NCBI RefSeq assembly: GCF_913055835.1
Contig: NZ_CAJXKQ010000003.1
Span: 1-64,000, forward strand
DNA from: an uncultured Marinobacter sp.
GTDB taxonomy: Bacteria > Pseudomonadota > Gammaproteobacteria > Pseudomonadales > Oleiphilaceae
Direction of reading: 5' to 3'
Length of the DNA stretch: 64,000 nucleotides
Of the stretch, positions 28,479-37,814 are shown piece by piece. The position numbers and the translations under genes are program-made. Below the pieces are notes generated by a model. It saw only the letters and a program-made list of their open reading frames with translations. It was not told the DNA's origin and did no database searches. Position 1 is the first letter of the stretch; each line of letters opens with the position of its first letter.

Positions 28479-28553
28479 TTCTGTTAAACTTTTACGGTAT
28501 TAACGCAATTGCCGAGCGTGTCCTCACTCCATAACGAACGGGAGCCGAACTCA

Positions 28554-30074
28554 ATGGCCCATGAAGAACTGCACCTCAACCTCCGGAACCTGAAGCTTGA
28601 AGACTACGAGCAACTTCAAAAGCTTATGGACCGCGTTTACGACGATATCGGAGGCGCCTGGCCCAAGGAGACCATCAAGGCATTGGTGGAACAGTTCCCG
28701 GACGGGCAGATCTGCATTGAGGAAAGTGGCCAGCTTATCGCGGTAGCGCTGACGGTTTGCGTGAAATACGAGCGCTTCAGCAACCCGCACACCTACGACG
28801 ATCTTATCCTCCGGAACGAGAAGATCTGGCACAACGCCAATGGTGACTCCCTCTACGGGCTGGATGTCTTCATTCACCCGGACTATCGGGGCTACCGTCT
28901 GGGGCGTCGACTCTATGAAGCGCGGAAGGAACTCTGCCGTTCCATGAACCTGCGTGCCATTCTCGCGGGTGGCCGGATACCGAGTTACTTCAAATACGCC
29001 GAACAGTATTCTCCCGAGGAGTACATCCAGCGTGTGGATCGCAAGGAGATCTACGATCCGATCCTGAGTTTCCAGCTTTCCAACGATTTCCAGGTCACCC
29101 GGCTGATGCACAAGTACCTGCCAGAGGACGAAAAATCCCAGGGCTACGCCACCTTGCTGGAATGGCGGAACATTCTGTATACCCCGCCCTCGCCGGTTCT
29201 GAGCGTCAAGAAAACGCAGGTTAGGCTTGGTGCCGTACAGTGGCAGATGCGGGAATTCACCTCTGTTGAGGAAGTGCTCAAGCAGGTGGAGTACTTTGTG
29301 GATGCGCTGTCTGACTATAAAAGTGACTTCGCGATCTTCCCGGAATTTTTCAACGCGCCGCTGATGGGCCTCACCGACCAGATGGACCAGACCCGGGCCA
29401 TCCGCTTCCTGGCCGGATTCACCCAGCAGTTCCGCGAAGAAATGTCCGAAATGGCGGTGAGTTACAACATAAACATCATCACCGGCTCAATGCCGTTGAT
29501 CGAGAACGACCGGGTATACAACGTATCCTATCTCTGCCATCGGGATGGCCGCGTGGATGAACAGCGCAAGGTCCACATTACGCCCCATGAGCGTCGCGAC
29601 TGGGTTATTGAGGGCGGCAGCCAGTTTGAGGTTTTCGAAACCGATGCCGGCCGGGTCGCCATCATGATCTGTTACGACATCGAGTTTCCGGAGCTGGGCC
29701 GTATTGCTGCAAGCCAGGAAGTCGATATCATCATGGTGCCCTTCTGGACAGACACCAAAAACGGCTACCTTCGGGTTCGCCAATGCGCCCAGGCGCGGGC
29801 AATCGAAAACGAATGTTATGTCGTAATTACCGGGAGTGTTGGTAACCTGCCGAAAGTCGAGAACCTGGACGTCCAGTACGCCCAGTCATCCGTATTCTCG
29901 CCGTCGGATTTCGCCTTCCCCCATGATGCGGTGATGGCTGAAACAACACCCAATACGGAGATGATCATGTTCTCCGATATGGACCTGGAGAAATTGAAGC
30001 TGGTTCGCAACGAGGGGTCTGTCACCAACCTGAAAGATCGCCGCGTTGATATGTACGAGCTGAAAACGAAATAA
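28554..30074 (+). CDS. GNAT acetyltransferase fused to a carbon-nitrogen hydrolase (nitrilase superfamily)
   Basis: 506 residues from the ATG at 28554, chosen over an in-frame TTG at 28509 because GGGAG precedes it and MAHEELHLNLRNL begins the conserved part. Residues 1-210 are a GNAT domain (LDVFIHPDYRGYRLGRRLYE binds acetyl-CoA). Residues 225-506 are a nitrilase-type amidase with the Glu-Lys-Cys triad in FAIFPEFFNAP, RKVHITPHE and IMICYDIEFPEL. The fusion is a known architecture of unknown substrate; it could acylate an amine and hydrolyse an amide in one pathway. It stands alone. Confidence 0.9.
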   Translation: MAHEELHLNLRNLKLEDYEQLQKLMDRVYDDIGGAWPKETIKALVEQFPDGQICIEESGQLIAVALTVCVKYERFSNPHTYDDLILRNEKIWHNANGDSLYGLDVFIHPDYRGYRLGRRLYEARKELCRSMNLRAILAGGRIPSYFKYAEQYSPEEYIQRVDRKEIYDPILSFQLSNDFQVTRLMHKYLPEDEKSQGYATLLEWRNILYTPPSPVLSVKKTQVRLGAVQWQMREFTSVEEVLKQVEYFVDALSDYKSDFAIFPEFFNAPLMGLTDQMDQTRAIRFLAGFTQQFREEMSEMAVSYNINIITGSMPLIENDRVYNVSYLCHRDGRVDEQRKVHITPHERRDWVIEGGSQFEVFETDAGRVAIMICYDIEFPELGRIAASQEVDIIMVPFWTDTKNGYLRVRQCAQARAIENECYVVITGSVGNLPKVENLDVQYAQSSVFSPSDFAFPHDAVMAETTPNTEMIMFSDMDLEKLKLVRNEGSVTNLKDRRVDMYELKTK

Positions 30075-30686: not shown

Positions 30687-31370
30687 ATGGCAAAGAAAGC
30701 CAAACAGAACGTTGATAAGATCGTGAAGAAGGTCAACAAGGAGTTTGAAAAGACATCCGCCCAGATCGAAGGCCTGGTGAACGATGCGCTGAAGCAGTTC
30801 GACAGCCTGCAGAATCAGGTTCAGGAACCGGTGCGCAAGCTCCTTAAGGAAATTGACGAGCTTCGCGACCGTGAGATGAAGCGTTTCCACGAAGAGTTTG
30901 AACGCCGCCTTGAGGAATTCCACGAACTGCAGAGTAGCATTCTGGAGCGCCTGGGTGTGGCCTCGAAAGAAGCCGGTGAAGAGGTCAAGAAGCTCACAGA
31001 TGAAGTGAGCAAGGAAGCCAGCACGGCGGCCAAGAAGTCCGCTCCGAAAAAGAGCGCGAAAACGGCCTCCAAGTCAAAAGCCTCTGCCAGCAAGCCTGCT
31101 GCCAAAAAGCCAGCTGCTAAGAAGCCTGCTGCGAAGAAGCCCGCGGCCAGGAAAGCGCCCGCTGCCAAAGCCGCCAAGCCGGTTGATAAAAGCGACCTGA
31201 CCCTGGTTAAGGGTATTGGGCCGGCCACTGCAAAGAAGATGAAGGACGCGGGCATCACCTCCATCGACCAGATCGCCAACCCGTCTGCGGAAGACCAGGA
31301 AAAGCTGAAGGCCTTCTCTAACGTCAAGGGATATAGCCAATTTACCGCCGAAGCCAAGAAAATTAGCTAA
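30687..31370 (+). CDS. Coiled-coil protein with lysine/alanine repeats and a helix-hairpin-helix end
   Basis: 227 residues in three parts. Residues 1-110 are strongly helical and charged with a phasin-like look (FEKTSAQIEGLVNDALKQFD). Residues 115-165 are an Ala/Lys/Pro-rich tail resembling histone H1, with tandem AAKKP units. Residues 170-227 form a helix-hairpin-helix module (LVKGIGPATAKKMKDAGITS) as in DNA-binding or ribosomal-type HhH proteins. A DNA- or polymer-associated scaffold is plausible. Its TAA stop overlaps the next start (TAATG), coupling it to the SelD fusion. GGAG precedes the ATG. Function not known. Confidence 0.75.
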   Translation: MAKKAKQNVDKIVKKVNKEFEKTSAQIEGLVNDALKQFDSLQNQVQEPVRKLLKEIDELRDREMKRFHEEFERRLEEFHELQSSILERLGVASKEAGEEVKKLTDEVSKEASTAAKKSAPKKSAKTASKSKASASKPAAKKPAAKKPAAKKPAARKAPAAKAAKPVDKSDLTLVKGIGPATAKKMKDAGITSIDQIANPSAEDQEKLKAFSNVKGYSQFTAEAKKIS

Positions 31371-33646
31371 TGCGAACGCCTGACCAGCCTGTTTTACGGG
31401 ACATTGTCCTGATTGGCGGCGGGCACAGCCACGTCGGGGTACTGAAACGGTTCGCCATGAACCCGGTCCCCGGCGTGCGCCTGACCCTCATCTGCCGCGA
31501 CACCCACACCCCCTATTCCGGCATGCTGCCCGGCTACGTGGCCGGCCATTACAGCTACGACGATGTGCACATCGACCTGAGCCGTCTGGCCGAATACGCA
31601 GGCGCACGGTTCTATCGTGCCGAGGCCATGGGTATCGACCGGGATCGCAAGCGTGTTATCTGCCGTGGCCGTCCGGATGTGCCCTACGACATTCTGTCCA
31701 TCAACATTGGCTCGTCACCCAGGGTCAATGAGGTGGAGGGTGCCTCCGACCATGCGGTGCCGGTTAAACCCATCACCGGTTTCAATAACCGCTGGCTCGC
31801 CCTGCTCTCCCGGATTGAGAACCACGATGGGCCACTCACGGTTGCGGTGGTCGGAGCTGGCGCCGGTGGTGTGGAACTCACCCTGGCGATGCAGTTCCGC
31901 CTGAAGAACGAACTGAAGCAGCGCGGTAAAGACCCGAGCCAGCTCCATTTCCACCTCTTCGACGCTGCAGAGGAAATTCTCCCCACCCACAACCCGAAGG
32001 TTCGTGAGGTTTTCCGCAGGACGCTGGCGGAACGCGGCGTAAAGGTGCACCTCGGGTCTGCGGTGAGCAAGGTTCAGGAAGGGTTAATGGCCACCGAATC
32101 CGGTGAAACCCTGCAAACCGACGAAGTGCTCTGGGTGACCCGGGCCGGCGGGCCAGAGTGGTTGAAGGATACCGGCCTGGCGCTGGACGACGGGCTGTTC
32201 CTGCGAGTACGCGATACCCTGCAGGTAGAGAACGACGACAGCATTTTTGCTGCCGGTGACATTGCCAATGTACTGAACCACCCCCGCGAAAAAGCGGGCG
32301 TGTTTGCTGTGAGACAAGGCCCTCCCCTGGCCGACAATCTCAAGCGCCTGGCCACCGGAAAAGATCCGAAGGATTTCTACCCGCAGAAAAAGTGGCTGGC
32401 GTTAATCAGCACCGGCGATAAATACGCCGTCGCCTCCCGGGGCGACATGCAGTTTGACGGCGCCTGGGTCTGGCGCTGGAAGGACTGGATCGATCGCCGG
32501 TTCATGAAGAAATTCAATGATCTGCCTCCCATGGAGGAAGACGCCAAATTGCCGGATACCGCAGCGGCCCAGAACGCGGAGGAGGCCTCCCAGGCAATTT
32601 CGGCGGTGGCCATGCGTTGTGGTGGATGTGGAGCCAAGGTCGGCAGTACCGTTCTCTCCCGGGCTCTGGGTGAACTCAAACCCATCGAGCGGGACGATAT
32701 CCTCATCGGTCTTCACGCCCCGGATGATGCGGCCGTTCTGAAGGTACCGCCGGGCAAGGCCGTGGTACACACCGTGGATTTCTTCCGTGCCTTCATTGAT
32801 GACCCTTACATCTTCGGCAAGGTGGCGGCCAACCACAGCCTGGGTGACGTCTTTGCCATGGGTGCGGAGGCGCAGAGTGCCACGGCCGTGGCCACCGTGC
32901 CCTACGGCATTGAATCCAAGGTTGAGGACGTGGTTTACCAGATGATGTCCGGTGCCGTGGAAGTGTTGAACGAAGCCGGATGCGCGCTTGTGGGTGGCCA
33001 TACCGGCGAGGGCAAGGAACTTGCCCTGGGTTTTGCCGTGAACGGCCTGATCGACCCGGACGAGGTCATGAGCAAGGGCGGGCTGAAAGCCGGAGACGCT
33101 CTCATCCTTACCAAGCCCATAGGCACAGGTACCCTCTTTGCCGCCCACGCAAAGCTGGCCGCCAAAGGGCGATGGATTGATTCTGCCCTGGCCTCCATGA
33201 TCCAGTCCAACAAGGCGGCGGCAGACTGCCTCAGAAAGTTCGGCTCAAAAGCCTGTACCGACGTTACCGGGTTCGGCCTGCTCGGGCACCTGGTTGAAAT
33301 GACCAGGCCCTCGGGTGTGGATGCTGAGCTGGACCTTTCTGCGATTCCCATTCTGCCAGGCGCCGAGGAGACCGCTGCGGCAGGCATCCTCAGTTCACTG
33401 CAACCCGCAAACATCCGCTTGCGCCGCGGTATCCGGGATCAGGAAAAGTGGATCAATCACGCGCGGTACCCACTGATCTTTGACCCGCAAACGGCCGGAG
33501 GCCTGCTGGCGAGCGTTGCGGCAGACAAGGCCGAGGAGTGCGTTCGGGAACTGAAGTCGTTGGGCTATCCGCACACCGCCATCATCGGCCGCATAACCGC
33601 CCAGGATGAATCGGGGCCCATCGAGCCCATTTCCCTCCGGGATTAA
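31370..33646 (+). CDS. selD: Pyridine-nucleotide-disulfide oxidoreductase fused to selenide, water dikinase (SelD)
   Basis: 758 residues. Residues 1-380 form an FAD/NAD oxidoreductase of the NDH-2/sulfide-quinone type: LIGGGHSHVGVLKRFA, VAVVGAGAGGVELTLAMQ and IFAAGDIANV. Residues 410-758 are SelD with MRCGGCGAKVGS (catalytic cysteine, not selenocysteine), APDDAAVLKVP, GDVFAMGAEAQ and the glycine-rich ALVGGHTGEGKELALG. SelD makes selenophosphate from selenide and ATP; the fused oxidoreductase may supply reduced selenium. The fusion is known in bacteria. Its stop codon overlaps that of the convergent senB-like gene. No selenocysteine or selenouridine genes are seen nearby. Confidence 0.93.
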   Translation: MRTPDQPVLRDIVLIGGGHSHVGVLKRFAMNPVPGVRLTLICRDTHTPYSGMLPGYVAGHYSYDDVHIDLSRLAEYAGARFYRAEAMGIDRDRKRVICRGRPDVPYDILSINIGSSPRVNEVEGASDHAVPVKPITGFNNRWLALLSRIENHDGPLTVAVVGAGAGGVELTLAMQFRLKNELKQRGKDPSQLHFHLFDAAEEILPTHNPKVREVFRRTLAERGVKVHLGSAVSKVQEGLMATESGETLQTDEVLWVTRAGGPEWLKDTGLALDDGLFLRVRDTLQVENDDSIFAAGDIANVLNHPREKAGVFAVRQGPPLADNLKRLATGKDPKDFYPQKKWLALISTGDKYAVASRGDMQFDGAWVWRWKDWIDRRFMKKFNDLPPMEEDAKLPDTAAAQNAEEASQAISAVAMRCGGCGAKVGSTVLSRALGELKPIERDDILIGLHAPDDAAVLKVPPGKAVVHTVDFFRAFIDDPYIFGKVAANHSLGDVFAMGAEAQSATAVATVPYGIESKVEDVVYQMMSGAVEVLNEAGCALVGGHTGEGKELALGFAVNGLIDPDEVMSKGGLKAGDALILTKPIGTGTLFAAHAKLAAKGRWIDSALASMIQSNKAAADCLRKFGSKACTDVTGFGLLGHLVEMTRPSGVDAELDLSAIPILPGAEETAAAGILSSLQPANIRLRRGIRDQEKWINHARYPLIFDPQTAGGLLASVAADKAEECVRELKSLGYPHTAIIGRITAQDESGPIEPISLRD

Positions 33647-34647
33647 TGTCTCTGTAAACAGCGCTGCATTGCAAGGTGTAGCGCCTGTTCCAGGGATGCC
33701 TGTTCTTTTTCCGGCAGAAAACGCGCGGCCAAGCCGCCAACCTGCTTTTTGAGGGTGTCCAGAAACCCGGGTTCGGTCTCTGCGCGGTAGAGCAGATCGG
33801 CCAGAGCCTGCTCGTCCTCAACGGGAAAATATCCGGCATAGTCCCGCCCCAACAAGCCGACGTTTCCCGGGATGTCGGATGCCAACACCGGCAAGCCAGC
33901 CCGGCAGGCCTCGGAGACCACGTTTGCGCCACCCTCCATCACCGAGCTGATCACCATTACCTGGCTGTTTGCCATCAACTGCCGAGTGCTGGTTTTATCC
34001 AGCTCCCCTAGCCATCGAAAGCGTGGGTTTCCAGCCACTTCCTGTTCGGCCTTGTGGTGCCACTCTTCGTTGTGGGCCTTGCCGGCGCAAACAACCTGGA
34101 TCTGCGAGTCTTCCGGCAGCAATCGCGCAGCGTAGGCCGCCCGAAGAGAATCCTTTTCGTCCCGAAGATGGCCGATCACACAAACGCCGAATGTCTTTTC
34201 CGTTGTATCCGCTTGCGGCGCCGGAAAGGCTTCTGGCCCGTCAGCCGACTGGTAAAGCGTGACCAGCTTGCTGGCAAACCTGGCGGGTATGTCGTGCGCT
34301 ACCAGATCGTGCAGTCCGATAAGTGCATCGGCTATTTCCATGGAATACCGGGTATCTGCCGGGCACTCGTGCTGGTGGTGATAGATATCCGTACCTGTGA
34401 GGGCCACGATGAGGGGCTTTTCTGGCCAGGTTTCACTGAAACGCCGTATGGCATCGACACTTCGCCAGGCATGTAAAGCTATACAAGCATCGCAGGGTTC
34501 ACCGTGGTATTGAGTAACCACCTCGACCGAGTGCCCGGCAGTTTCCAGCAAAGCCTTCCACCGCTCCGCCGTTGCCCGGTTTCCTGCTTTCGAACCCGGC
34601 TGCGCCGGGGTGATCATTATGAGATGCATCGTGTCGGATCTGCCCAA
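33643..34647 (-). CDS. senB: SenB-like selenosugar synthase (family 1 glycosyltransferase)
   Basis: 334 residues with a GT-B glycosyltransferase layout: MHLIMITPAQPGSKAGNRAT at the N-terminus, ALTGTDIYHH, GVCVIGHLRDEKDS and, for sugar-nucleotide binding, SSVMEGGANVVSEACRAGLPV. The opening PAQPGSKAGNRAT and adjacency to SelD fit the SenB family, shown in selenoneine producers to join selenophosphate and a UDP-sugar into a selenosugar. SenA, which completes selenoneine, is not in the window. Assignment rests on recognised sequence and context, not on a search; a generic glycosyltransferase is the alternative. Confidence 0.72.
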   Translation of the reverse strand: MGRSDTMHLIMITPAQPGSKAGNRATAERWKALLETAGHSVEVVTQYHGEPCDACIALHAWRSVDAIRRFSETWPEKPLIVALTGTDIYHHQHECPADTRYSMEIADALIGLHDLVAHDIPARFASKLVTLYQSADGPEAFPAPQADTTEKTFGVCVIGHLRDEKDSLRAAYAARLLPEDSQIQVVCAGKAHNEEWHHKAEQEVAGNPRFRWLGELDKTSTRQLMANSQVMVISSVMEGGANVVSEACRAGLPVLASDIPGNVGLLGRDYAGYFPVEDEQALADLLYRAETEPGFLDTLKKQVGGLAARFLPEKEQASLEQALHLAMQRCLQRH

Positions 34648-34708
34648 GGTTGCTGATAAAAAGAGGCTCTCGGGTCTGAGCCGTTTAAACCCGCAAACCG
34701 TATAGCTG

Positions 34709-34737
34709 TTCAGAGTTAACGTAAATCAAGGTATCCT
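34709..34737 (+). promoter_or_regulatory. Candidate sigma-70 promoter for the selenium ABC operon
   Basis: TTCAGA (34709-34714) and TATCCT (34732-34737) are 17 bp apart, each matching 4 of 6 consensus bases. They lie about 70 bp upstream of the solute-binding gene, in the divergent region shared with senB. Confidence 0.3.
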
Positions 34738-34807
34738 GCGAGGCATCGAGAAGCGTTGACTTACCTCGTATTGAATCCCACACAGTCTGGCACAGTAAGG
34801 AACTCCA

Positions 34808-35683
34808 ATGGCCCTTAATCTTATACGGAAATTGATGTTTTCCAGCCTTTTTTGTTTCACCGCGGCAACCGCATCGGCTGAAACCTTCGTATTCACCGCC
34901 ATCCCCGATGAAGACGAAACCAAACTGGTCGAGCGATTCAAGGGTGTGGCCGACTATCTTTCCCAGGAACTGGACGTAGACGTGCGCTACATTCCGGTTA
35001 AATCCTACGCCGCGGCGGTCTCCGCATTCCGTAACAACCAGGTGCAACTGGCCTGGTTTGGCGGGCTATCCGGTGTACAGGCACGTCGACTGGTGCCCGG
35101 CTCCGAGGCCATTGCCCAGGGTGTGGAAGATGAAGCATTCCAGACCTATTTTATTGCCAATACCAGCACCGGCATCGAGCCTGCCGAAGAGCTGTCCGCG
35201 CTTGAAAGTGAATTGAAAGACAAAACCTTCACCTTCGGCTCCAAAGGTTCCACTTCCGGGCGTCTGATGCCCGAGTTCTACATCCGTGATGTGTTTGGTG
35301 CCCAGCCGGAGGATTTTTTCTCCCGCGTTGGGTTCAGCGGCAACCACACCCGCACCCTGCGCCTCGTTGAAGCCGGCACCTATCAGGTTGGCGCACTGAA
35401 CTTCCAGGTCTGGGAGAAAGAGCTTGCCGACGGCAACATCGACACCGACGCCGTTCAGGTAATCTGGGAAACCCCACCCTACCCGGACTACCAGTGGACT
35501 ATCCGCGGTGACGTCAACGAGCGGTTTGGAGACGGCTTCAAGGAGCGTGTAACCCAGGCTCTGCTGAACCTGGACGACCAGGCGTTGCTGGAAAGCTTCC
35601 CACGTTCCGGTTTCATTCCTGCATCCAACGACGACTACGAGCCCATTCGCAAGACAGCGGAAGAGATTGGAATCCTGGACTGA
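34808..35683 (+). CDS. Putative selenate/selenium ABC transporter, periplasmic binding protein
   Basis: 291 residues, PhnD-like. Signal peptide ends near ATASAE; the mature part has FTAIPDEDETKLVERF, YIPVKSYAAAVSAFRNNQ, AWFGGLSGVQARRLV and FGSKGSTSGRLMPE. These are features of the binding-protein group that recurs next to selD and is annotated as putative selenate transport. It stands first in a three-gene importer operon, with AAGGA before the start and a 1-bp overlap to the ATPase gene. The substrate is inferred from family and neighbours; phosphonate, selenite or another oxyanion remains possible. Confidence 0.82.
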   Translation: MALNLIRKLMFSSLFCFTAATASAETFVFTAIPDEDETKLVERFKGVADYLSQELDVDVRYIPVKSYAAAVSAFRNNQVQLAWFGGLSGVQARRLVPGSEAIAQGVEDEAFQTYFIANTSTGIEPAEELSALESELKDKTFTFGSKGSTSGRLMPEFYIRDVFGAQPEDFFSRVGFSGNHTRTLRLVEAGTYQVGALNFQVWEKELADGNIDTDAVQVIWETPPYPDYQWTIRGDVNERFGDGFKERVTQALLNLDDQALLESFPRSGFIPASNDDYEPIRKTAEEIGILD

Positions 35684-36333
35684 TGTCAGGGTTTGATCTT
35701 GCAGGTCTGACAGCCTCTTTCGGCGGTGAGCGGGTTATAGGCCCGCTCTCGTTGAGAGTTCAAAAGGGCGAACGGGTCGGGCTGGTTGGTAAAAGTGGTG
35801 CAGGAAAATCCACGCTGATCCGCCTGATTCATGAGCAGGTAAACCGGGAATCTTCTCTGGTTCCTCAGGATCTCGGGCTGGTTAACGCTCTGCCTGTGTT
35901 CCATAACGTTTTTATGGGCCAACTGGACAAACACGCTACCTGGTACAACACGCTCACGCTGATCCGTCCGTTCTCGAAGGATCGAGACGACGTGCGTGAG
36001 CTGTTGAGAACCCTGGGTATGGCAGAGAAATTCTGGTTGCCTACAGCCTCGCTATCGGGAGGCCAGCGTCAGCGTGTGGCCATTGCCCGTGCGGTATATC
36101 GTAATGCCCCGGTACTTCTGGCTGATGAGCCTATATCGGCCCTGGATGGTCCCATGGCACATCTGGTAATGGATCTGTTAAGGGAGCGGTTCCAGACCAG
36201 CGTTATTGCACTGCACGATGTCGACATGGCACTGCAGTACTGCAGCCGGATTGTCGGTATTCAGGATGGCCAGGTGGCCCTGGACGAATCCAGTGAGCGC
36301 CTGACTGCCACCGACGTAACGTCGCTGTACTAG
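35683..36333 (+). CDS. ABC transporter ATP-binding protein of the selenium importer
   Basis: 216 residues. Walker A GLVGKSGAGKSTLIRL, signature LSGGQRQRVAIARA and Walker B LLADEPISALDG are complete. It resembles PhnC-type ATPases but is shorter. Its ATG overlaps the TGA of the binding-protein gene, and the permease gene follows after 14 bp. It supplies energy for import. Confidence 0.88.
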   Translation: MSGFDLAGLTASFGGERVIGPLSLRVQKGERVGLVGKSGAGKSTLIRLIHEQVNRESSLVPQDLGLVNALPVFHNVFMGQLDKHATWYNTLTLIRPFSKDRDDVRELLRTLGMAEKFWLPTASLSGGQRQRVAIARAVYRNAPVLLADEPISALDGPMAHLVMDLLRERFQTSVIALHDVDMALQYCSRIVGIQDGQVALDESSERLTATDVTSLY

Positions 36334-36347
36334 GGAACGGCCTCTTC

Positions 36348-37814
36348 ATGCTTTCTTCCCCAACGGTCCGCACCAGCTTTATCTTTGTTGCCGTCGCCCT
36401 GATCGGCTTGCTATTCGCGGACATTGCAATCACGGCATCCAATCCGTGGCGAGACCTCGGTAACTTCTTCCTCGGGGTTGTAACGCCCAACTTTTTCAGC
36501 AGCGAGGGTCTGATGACCGCCCTGCTGAGAACGGTTGCCTTTGCTTTTGTCGGAGTAGCACTGGGAAGCGTTTGCGGTTTCCTGTTGTCGCTGATCTACC
36601 GTTTCCTACCGGTGCGCATTTTCTGTGCTTTTATAAGGGCTATTCACGAGCTCTTCTGGGCCCTTATCTTTCTGCAGTTTTTCGGCTTCCATCCGCTCAC
36701 CGGTGTGCTGGCAATCGCCATCCCTTATTCCGGGATCTTCGCCAAGGTGTATTCCGAAATCCTGGATGAAGCCGACCCCGAGCCAAGAAGACTCTTGCCT
36801 CCTGGCACCGGAACGATTGCGGCGTTTCTTTACACCCGGATTCCGGACTGCTGGGTCCAGCTTCGCACCTATACAGCCTATCGCCTGGAGTGTGGCCTAC
36901 GTTCAAGCGCCATTCTCGGGTTCGTAGGGCTGCCCACGCTGGGCTTCTATCTGGAATCCTCGTTCTCGCAGGGGCTCTATTCCGACGCGGGCGCAATGCT
37001 CATTCTGTTTTATGTACTGATCGCAACCATGCCTTTGTGGGTTAAGCCGAAGATCCTGCCCTTCTACATTGTGGGCGCGCCCTTCTTCCTTGGTGATGGC
37101 TTGCCCATTGTCTGGGGCAACGTTGAGCGTTTTTTCACAGAGGACATTGTCCCCAGTCCACTGCGTGATGGTGAGGGCCTTGCCGGGCTGATCCCCTGGT
37201 TCAACGATCTGATGATCAACCAGGCCATGCCCGGCATCTGGAATACCGTGATACTCACACAGATTGCGCTGGTGGCCACCGGTATCCTCACCCTGCTCGC
37301 TTTCCCGCTGATCTCCAACCACTTCGGTGGCCCGGTTCGGCGCACATCCGGCCATGTGTTTCTGGTTATTGCCCGTTCAACCCCGGAATACATCCTGGCC
37401 TATATTCTTCTGCAGCTCTGGGGGCCCTCGATGTTGCCTGCGGTGGTCGCGCTTGCGCTTCATAACGGCGGGATCATCGGTCATCTGATAGGCCGGCAGA
37501 CCAATGGCATTCGTCTGCGGCCAGACGCGCCAACCGGTTTCAACCGTTACAGCTGGGAACTTGTGCCGAGGATTTACCGGTCATTCCTGGCTTTCCTTTT
37601 CTATCGCTGGGAAATCATCATGCGGGAGACTGCCATTCTGGGCATTCTCGGGATCTACACCCTGGGCTTCTACGTCGACAGCGCGATCCAGAATATCCGT
37701 TTTGATCGCGCCATGGTGCTCATTCTGATAACCGCCCTGCTGAACATTGGCATCGACGCCCTCGGCCGCTACATTCGCCGCAAGCTGGCCCTTCAAACCA
37801 TGCCCACCTGTTAA
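36348..37814 (+). CDS. ABC importer permease with two fused membrane domains
   Basis: 488 residues, about twice a usual PhnE permease. Each half has several membrane helices and its own coupling region: SEILDEADPEPRRLLP in the first and RYSWELVPRIYRSF with IIMRETAILGILG in the second. The two halves share GFYLESS/GFYVDSA-type segments, so the gene is a PhnE-PhnE tandem fusion that can form the whole channel by itself. Last gene of the importer operon; a hairpin follows at 37819. Confidence 0.87.
   Translation: MLSSPTVRTSFIFVAVALIGLLFADIAITASNPWRDLGNFFLGVVTPNFFSSEGLMTALLRTVAFAFVGVALGSVCGFLLSLIYRFLPVRIFCAFIRAIHELFWALIFLQFFGFHPLTGVLAIAIPYSGIFAKVYSEILDEADPEPRRLLPPGTGTIAAFLYTRIPDCWVQLRTYTAYRLECGLRSSAILGFVGLPTLGFYLESSFSQGLYSDAGAMLILFYVLIATMPLWVKPKILPFYIVGAPFFLGDGLPIVWGNVERFFTEDIVPSPLRDGEGLAGLIPWFNDLMINQAMPGIWNTVILTQIALVATGILTLLAFPLISNHFGGPVRRTSGHVFLVIARSTPEYILAYILLQLWGPSMLPAVVALALHNGGIIGHLIGRQTNGIRLRPDAPTGFNRYSWELVPRIYRSFLAFLFYRWEIIMRETAILGILGIYTLGFYVDSAIQNIRFDRAMVLILITALLNIGIDALGRYIRRKLALQTMPTC

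Follow-up and report, generated by a model that had tools for sequence, protein, structure and literature searches.

The selD-senB-importer locus of this Marinobacter genome very probably forms one half of an ovoselenol pathway, the half that supplies selenium and attaches it to a sugar; the remaining enzymes, OvsA and an OvsM-type methyltransferase, are predicted on two other contigs. The kind of pathway is known, and ovoselenol is the product that the encoded enzymes point to. The selenosugar made by SenB is probably a step toward this known antioxidant, and not a new selenium sugar product.

A selenium locus built of separate modules

The window, which is the whole stretch of 64,000 nucleotides that was analysed, lies on contig C3 of a genome (G000) of 4.09 Mb in 60 contigs, with an estimated completeness of 94.5%. 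The following genes form the locus:

31370..33646, + strand: Ndh-type FAD oxidoreductase-SelD (selenide, water dikinase) fusion (TIGR03169, TIGR00476)
33643..34647, - strand: SenB, selenosugar synthase, convergent with selD (TIGR04348; active-site residues of the solved SenB)
34808..35683, + strand: periplasmic oxyanion-binding protein of the importer (TIGR04553)
35683..36333, + strand: ABC ATPase of the importer (PhnC-like, 165 bits, below the cut-off of 266; the order binding protein-ATPase-permease is the same in relatives)
36348..37814, + strand: permease of the importer, 488 amino acids (PhnE-like, 193 bits in two matched stretches, below the cut-off of 217; kept in relatives)

A previous inspection of the DNA letters (the sequence-only reading) had described a SelD fusion, a SenB-like enzyme and an importer, and all three were found at the positions it gave. 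The convergence of selD and senB was likewise borne out, their stop codons overlapping on opposite strands within 33643-33646. The ORF starting at 30687 encodes a coiled-coil/HHH protein that matched no selenium family among the NCBIfam models. A GNAT acetyltransferase-nitrilase fusion is encoded at 28509-30074 of the window, and is kept upstream of the locus in relatives both with and without SenB.

The locus was compared across 120 Marinobacter genomes, an even sample from a larger group; as all belong to one genus, the counts are not independent. SenB scored above its cut-off in 104 of them, and in these senB lies beside selD in 92 cases and beside the importer in 103, an arrangement that is more than chance. 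Together with the family scores, this adjacency upholds the earlier proposal that SelD, SenB and the importer form one selenium module.

The backbone order in the genus is GNAT-nitrilase, small ORF, HHH protein, fusion selD, senB (reversed) and importer, with senB between selD and the importer in all 91 genomes in which the three genes are close together. Seven genomes lacking SenB (G012, G020, G050, G074, G080, G094 and G113) have selD and the importer directly adjacent and in the same direction, separated by 239-344 bases between the matched parts, and four others (G004, G026, G063 and G097) have the two apart. Moreover, twelve SenB-bearing genomes carry no fusion beside SenB and a stand-alone selD elsewhere; in the seven of these that were read, senB is adjoined by the HHH gene or, in G043, by the small ORF. 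Such varied layouts indicate that three separate modules, selD, senB and the importer, share one site, with SenB as an optional cassette. Convergence with overlapping stops appears to have arisen through insertion or loss of senB in a selD-importer pair.

SenB carries the active-site residues of the solved enzyme

The protein encoded at 33643-34647 scored 412 bits with the NCBIfam model TIGR04348 (cut-off 300) and aligned to the solved SenB of Variovorax with 178 bits. Residues N20, T23, H58, R61, T83, T85, Q131, R155, K158, E231 and E239 of the solved enzyme are all identical here, the departures being V157 (E here) and H235 (N here). As described in the available part of PMC10891094, K158 is catalytic, N20, T23 and E231 contact the donor, and H58, R61, T83, T85 and R155 form the selenophosphate pocket. 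Thus checked against a characterised SenB, the glycosyltransferase was confirmed as a member of that family, and an ordinary GT4 enzyme was rejected on the basis of the TIGR04348 score and the shared active-site residues. These residues support a predicted transfer of selenium from selenophosphate to a UDP-sugar. The closest named relatives of the protein are from Marinobacter, at 63-85% identity.

A predicted OvsA on another contig

OvsA joins selenium from a selenosugar to histidine. A candidate for this step emerged from a search of the genome with the NCBIfam SenA model (NF041186), which matches a protein of contig C27 (G000:C27:39611-40981; L011:8611-9981) with 428 bits, just above the cut-off of 420. 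When aligned to solved proteins, the C27 protein scored 658 bits with OvsA (8u41; named 'selenoxide synthase OvsA' in the PDB), 186 bits with EgtB (4x8b) and 175 bits with SenA (8k5i), the identities being 62.6% to OvsA, 32.3% to EgtB and 38.2% to SenA. When 65 proteins were placed in a tree, the solved OvsA fell into one clade, supported at 100/100, with 32 Marinobacter rows, among them the C27 protein. Apart from it stood 21 class-wide SenA-model matches, a protein of Marinobacter G057 and the solved SenA (support 81/93), while a SenA-type row from G337 was unplaced; a long-branch warning for this tree (EgtB, G226 and others) does not bear on the OvsA clade.

The residues agree with the tree. 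The OvsA chains 8u41 and 8ux5 differ in the alignments at three positions, and 8ux5 is, we infer, a designed variant of OvsA. All 33 rows of the OvsA clade, including the C27 protein, have the 8u41 letters M, Q and A at these positions, and the other 32 rows (23 of the SenA clade, 8 of EgtB and the unplaced G337) all have Y, then N or T, then Y, F or W. From the scores against solved proteins, the clade and the M/Q/A residues, the C27 enzyme is, to judge by its sequence, OvsA, the selenoxide synthase of ovoselenol. Its identity as SenA was rejected in spite of its passing NF041186, as it falls outside the SenA clade and has OvsA-type residues. The NCBIfam SenA model overcalls, since proteins in the score band of OvsA exceed its cut-off in 97 of the 120 Marinobacter genomes and would be labelled as selenoneine synthase.

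A gene for a DASS-type anion symporter was observed just upstream of ovsA (e.g. L011:6680-8548; L151, L153, L154) at 14 of 33 OvsA loci, a count in which all four loci with wide flanks were positive and most loci offered a 1.5 kb flank only. This symporter may help to transport selenium or the product.

A methyltransferase and the proposed pathway

The gene at G000:C4:37219-37974 encodes a methyltransferase of the OvoA C-terminal family that stands alone, with 251 amino acids and no fused domain (TIGR04345, 313 bits; cut-off 170). Such a gene lies at most 200 bp from ovsA in 33 of the 98 Marinobacter genomes that have both, though not in this one, and for that reason we marked it as OvsM. A profile search of this genome found no OvoA-type fused protein, which leaves OvsA as the sole candidate partner observed for the methyltransferase. 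EgtD gave no match at E 0.001 in the same genome, and an egtD above the cut-off is absent from 87 of the 101 Marinobacter genomes with an OvsA-band match; consequently, the hercynine needed for selenoneine is not accounted for. As neither an OvoA-type protein nor EgtD was matched, this gene set does not naturally suggest ovothiol or selenoneine, although at 94.5% completeness the missing egtD, like a missing selA (see below), could be a gap.

In the pathway that we propose, the ABC importer would take in an inorganic selenium oxyanion, and the FAD domain of the fusion would help to reduce the selenium or deliver electrons. The SelD domain would convert selenide to selenophosphate, from which SenB would move selenium onto a UDP-sugar. 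From this selenosugar, the OvsA encoded on C27 would transfer selenium to the histidine imidazole, after which the OvsM-type methyltransferase encoded on C4 would give ovoselenol.

The biosynthesis of ovoselenol by OvsA and OvsM, with SenB and SelD, was reportedly described by Kayrouz et al. (2024, Nat Chem 16:1868). The present genome has the same components, namely an OvsA at the identity given above and with the M/Q/A residues, an OvsM-type methyltransferase, SenB and SelD, but differs in that their genes are split over three contigs. A layout split over three places is unusual for a pathway of this kind, and the lack of linkage between senB and ovsA in this genome counts against the ovoselenol reading. 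The case shows that the genes of such a pathway may lie far apart, and a reading confined to the window then misses the end product.

SenB and OvsA occur together

A full-length match in the OvsA band (412-449 bits) was found in 101 of the 120 Marinobacter genomes, every one of them SenB-bearing: 101 of 104 genomes with SenB against 0 of 16 without it (Fisher p = 3e-17, a value that ignores relatedness). These 101 genomes comprise the 97 above the SenA cut-off and four just below it (G018, G066, G086 and G114); 32 of the proteins were verified by tree and residues, and the other 69 were assigned by score alone. Restricting the comparison to genomes with a completeness of 90% or more and a contamination of 5% or less gave 92 of 93 with SenB and 0 of 13 without. 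The best SenA-model matches of the SenB-less genomes were EgtB-like in four genomes (321-359 bits) and OvoA-like or absent in the rest. These counts place a probable ovoselenol pathway in the bulk of a common marine genus.

Three SenB-bearing genomes had no intact OvsA. One is G116, which is 72% complete. In the other two, G055 (L176) and G100 (L175), ovsA is present as two pieces in different frames, through either true breakage or an assembly error.

A stand-alone methyltransferase, defined as an open frame of less than 400 amino acids, was present in 100 of the 104 genomes with SenB and in 1 of the 16 without it (G091, 58% complete); under this definition the entry of G013 (324 amino acids) and the surplus ones in G009 and G032 may represent OvoA fragments. 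The four SenB-bearing genomes lacking it (G035, G051, G101 and G116) each encode a fused methyltransferase of the OvoA type.

In a class-wide sample SenB was found in 23 of 369 genomes, all 23 of which also had a SenA-band match (at least 461 bits, 22 genomes) or an OvsA-band match. One of them, G337, has both, and its senB lies beside a fusion selD about 15 kb from ovsA on the same contig.

The importer and its substrate

The binding protein encoded at 34808-35683 scored 429 bits with TIGR04553, a 'putative selenate' model with a cut-off of 250. The importer had been called one of the putative selenate type, and that call stands as far as the model cut-off goes; the label itself is only a putative family name, and the phosphate- and phosphite-binding protein PhnD1 passes as well. 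Indeed, the closest solved proteins are PhnD1 of Synechococcus (7s6g, 44.8% identity) and of Prochlorococcus (5lq5, 41.3%), both of which exceed the cut-off, with 334 and 295 bits. The seven direct anion contacts of 7s6g (Y44, S124, T125, S126, H156, D203 and Y204) are identical in our binding protein and shared by 34 of the 36 proteins aligned, the other two having N in place of D203. Differences from the picocyanobacterial proteins lie in the linkage to selD and senB and in the second shell, where our protein has S for T65 and G for S123 of 7s6g. The latter position is occupied by G in the Marinobacter rows, by T in the plasmid rows from Paracoccaceae and Roseobacteraceae, by N in 5lq5 and by S in Aeromonas.

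Binding measurements on picocyanobacterial PhnD1 showed phosphite, phosphate and, for the most part, methylphosphonate as ligands (PMC10284923). The binding was tighter for phosphite than for phosphate, which its authors left unexplained as the cells have no known genes for phosphite use, and selenium goes unmentioned in the available part of that study. The importer could therefore carry phosphate, phosphite or another phosphorus anion and be unrelated to selenium, since its closest solved relatives pass the family model and share its contacts. The four SenB-less genomes in which importer and selD lie apart are in line with this, as are plasmid neighbourhoods: 16 plasmid records carry a relative, and among the ten neighbourhoods read, six showed no selenium gene within 7 kb and a seventh had no annotation. 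Against it stand the adjacency to senB in all but one of the 104 SenB-bearing genomes and to selD in seven SenB-less ones, together with the remaining three neighbourhoods, all on Paracoccus plasmids with one arrangement, in which the importer is divergent from a formate dehydrogenase (fdn) operon ending in fdhE and selA, a different user of selenium. An importer of phosphorus is thus a doubtful reading, but one that keeps appreciable weight. As the contacts equal those of PhnD1 and PhnD1 passes TIGR04553, the sequence of the importer cannot separate selenium from phosphorus, and it is the gene linkage that favours selenium.

Across the genus, the importer scored above its cut-off in 116 of the 120 genomes, comprising all 104 with SenB and 12 of the 16 without it, so that it tracks the use of selenium in general more than SenB. 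No paper on point that connects this importer with selenium turned up in a literature search, and the candidate selenium transport genes in the available part of PMC5322559 (YedE) are other than this importer.

A bolder proposition, which we consider unlikely at present, is that the TIGR04553/PhnD1 group as a whole carries selenite. It draws on the importer staying with selD, with or without senB, in Marinobacter, and adjoining the selA-fdn operon in Paracoccus. The PhnD1-type pocket, gripping three oxygens trigonally, would fit selenite as well as phosphite. If the proposition were true, marine picocyanobacterial PhnD1 would turn out to import selenite and to have been assayed with the wrong element. 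The substrate of this widespread importer family comes down to a simple binding question. In Aeromonas, the unannotated match (H16) showed only a binding protein, an ABC ATPase and a permease by comparison with the window proteins.

The SelD fusion and the users of its selenophosphate

The fusion at 31370-33646 scored 513 bits with TIGR03169 (Nterm_to_SelD; cut-off 310) and 303 bits with TIGR00476 (selD; cut-off 125) of NCBIfam, and its closest solved SelD is 3u0o (173 bits). The identity described by TIGR04369, 'fusion_not_SelD', was rejected, the score being 479 bits against a cut-off of 700. A CxxC motif (C417, C420) lies in the active-site loop of the SelD domain and is present in all 19 fusions aligned. 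The FAD domain has two cysteines only, C42 and C98, so widely spaced that nothing points to a redox disulfide within this domain. The CxxC motif is known from marine Ndh-SelD fusions (PMC2398784), whose domain order and motif are the same as here; no difference was found, and the part of that paper available mentions neither SenB nor the importer. In the available part of another paper (PMC5029168), Prochlorococcus W7-W9 are listed with an orphan SelD and an ABC ATPase is noted near some orphan selD genes.

Within the window, SenB had appeared as the visible user of selenophosphate. The genome also encodes MnmH (G000:C16:4670-5659, 358 bits; cut-off 219.75), so that SenB is not the sole likely user. 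Regarding the two genes that the sequence-only reading had set against a selenosugar, mnmH is present and selA gave no match in this genome; among the 120 Marinobacter genomes selA was found in 9. A SelD supplying selenocysteine was rejected for this lack of a selA match. As mnmH is present and a single selD-model match exceeds the cut-off, one SelD most likely serves both SenB and MnmH, which it would feed for 2-selenouridine in tRNA.

The locus might then be mainly a general selenium supply for MnmH, with SenB as a passenger. In agreement with this, mnmH scores above its cut-off in 119 of the 120 genomes (15 of the 16 without SenB), and selD and the importer stay adjacent in the seven SenB-less genomes listed above. 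The close tracking of OvsA by SenB in the genus argues that SenB is no passenger, and we regard this reading as improbable; a supply role for MnmH is in itself compatible with the ovoselenol reading, not opposed to it. G058, a genome 82% complete, has mnmH, and neither selD nor the importer scored above cut-off in it.

Other end products

A selenosugar had been suggested as the product of the locus, and SenB is indeed promiscuous, making several selenosugars in vitro according to the available part of PMC10891094. Moreover, senB adjoins neither ovsA nor senA in this genome, and G116 has SenB without an OvsA-band match, though it is an incomplete genome. The suggestion does not hold up well against the OvsA and OvsM-type enzymes encoded elsewhere in the genome. 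SenB lacking an intact partner is limited to 3 of the 104 Marinobacter genomes (two with ovsA pieces, one incomplete) and is absent among the 23 class-wide genomes, and this rarity speaks against a selenosugar as end product, so that a pathway ending at SenB, with no further step, is very improbable.

The sequence-only reading had also allowed for selenoneine, should senA lie elsewhere, and the genome was searched accordingly, the SenA-model match proving to be OvsA and egtD not being found. The biosynthesis of selenoneine through senABC was reportedly described by Kayrouz et al. (2022, Nature 610:199). The SenB family with its active site and a selD beside senB are the same here, but the genome has no SenA-clade enzyme and no egtD match. 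A literature search for Marinobacter with selenoneine found nothing. Selenoneine as the product is the least probable of the readings, since the C27 enzyme, for all its 428 bits with NF041186 and the presence in a relative (G057) of SenA-clade and OvsA-clade enzymes plus egtD, sits in the OvsA clade with OvsA residues, in a genome where egtD was unmatched.

That relative, G057, encodes its SenA-clade enzyme at G057:C8:423193-424485 and its OvsA-clade enzyme at G057:C6:270107-271438 (L152, L153), and also has selA; it may make two selenium antioxidants, to judge from these genes. Finally, on the 25 kb plasmid pMPOP01 of Methylorubrum populi BJ001 (L164), which carries senA and senB, a gene for an IS6-family transposase was observed directly beside senA.
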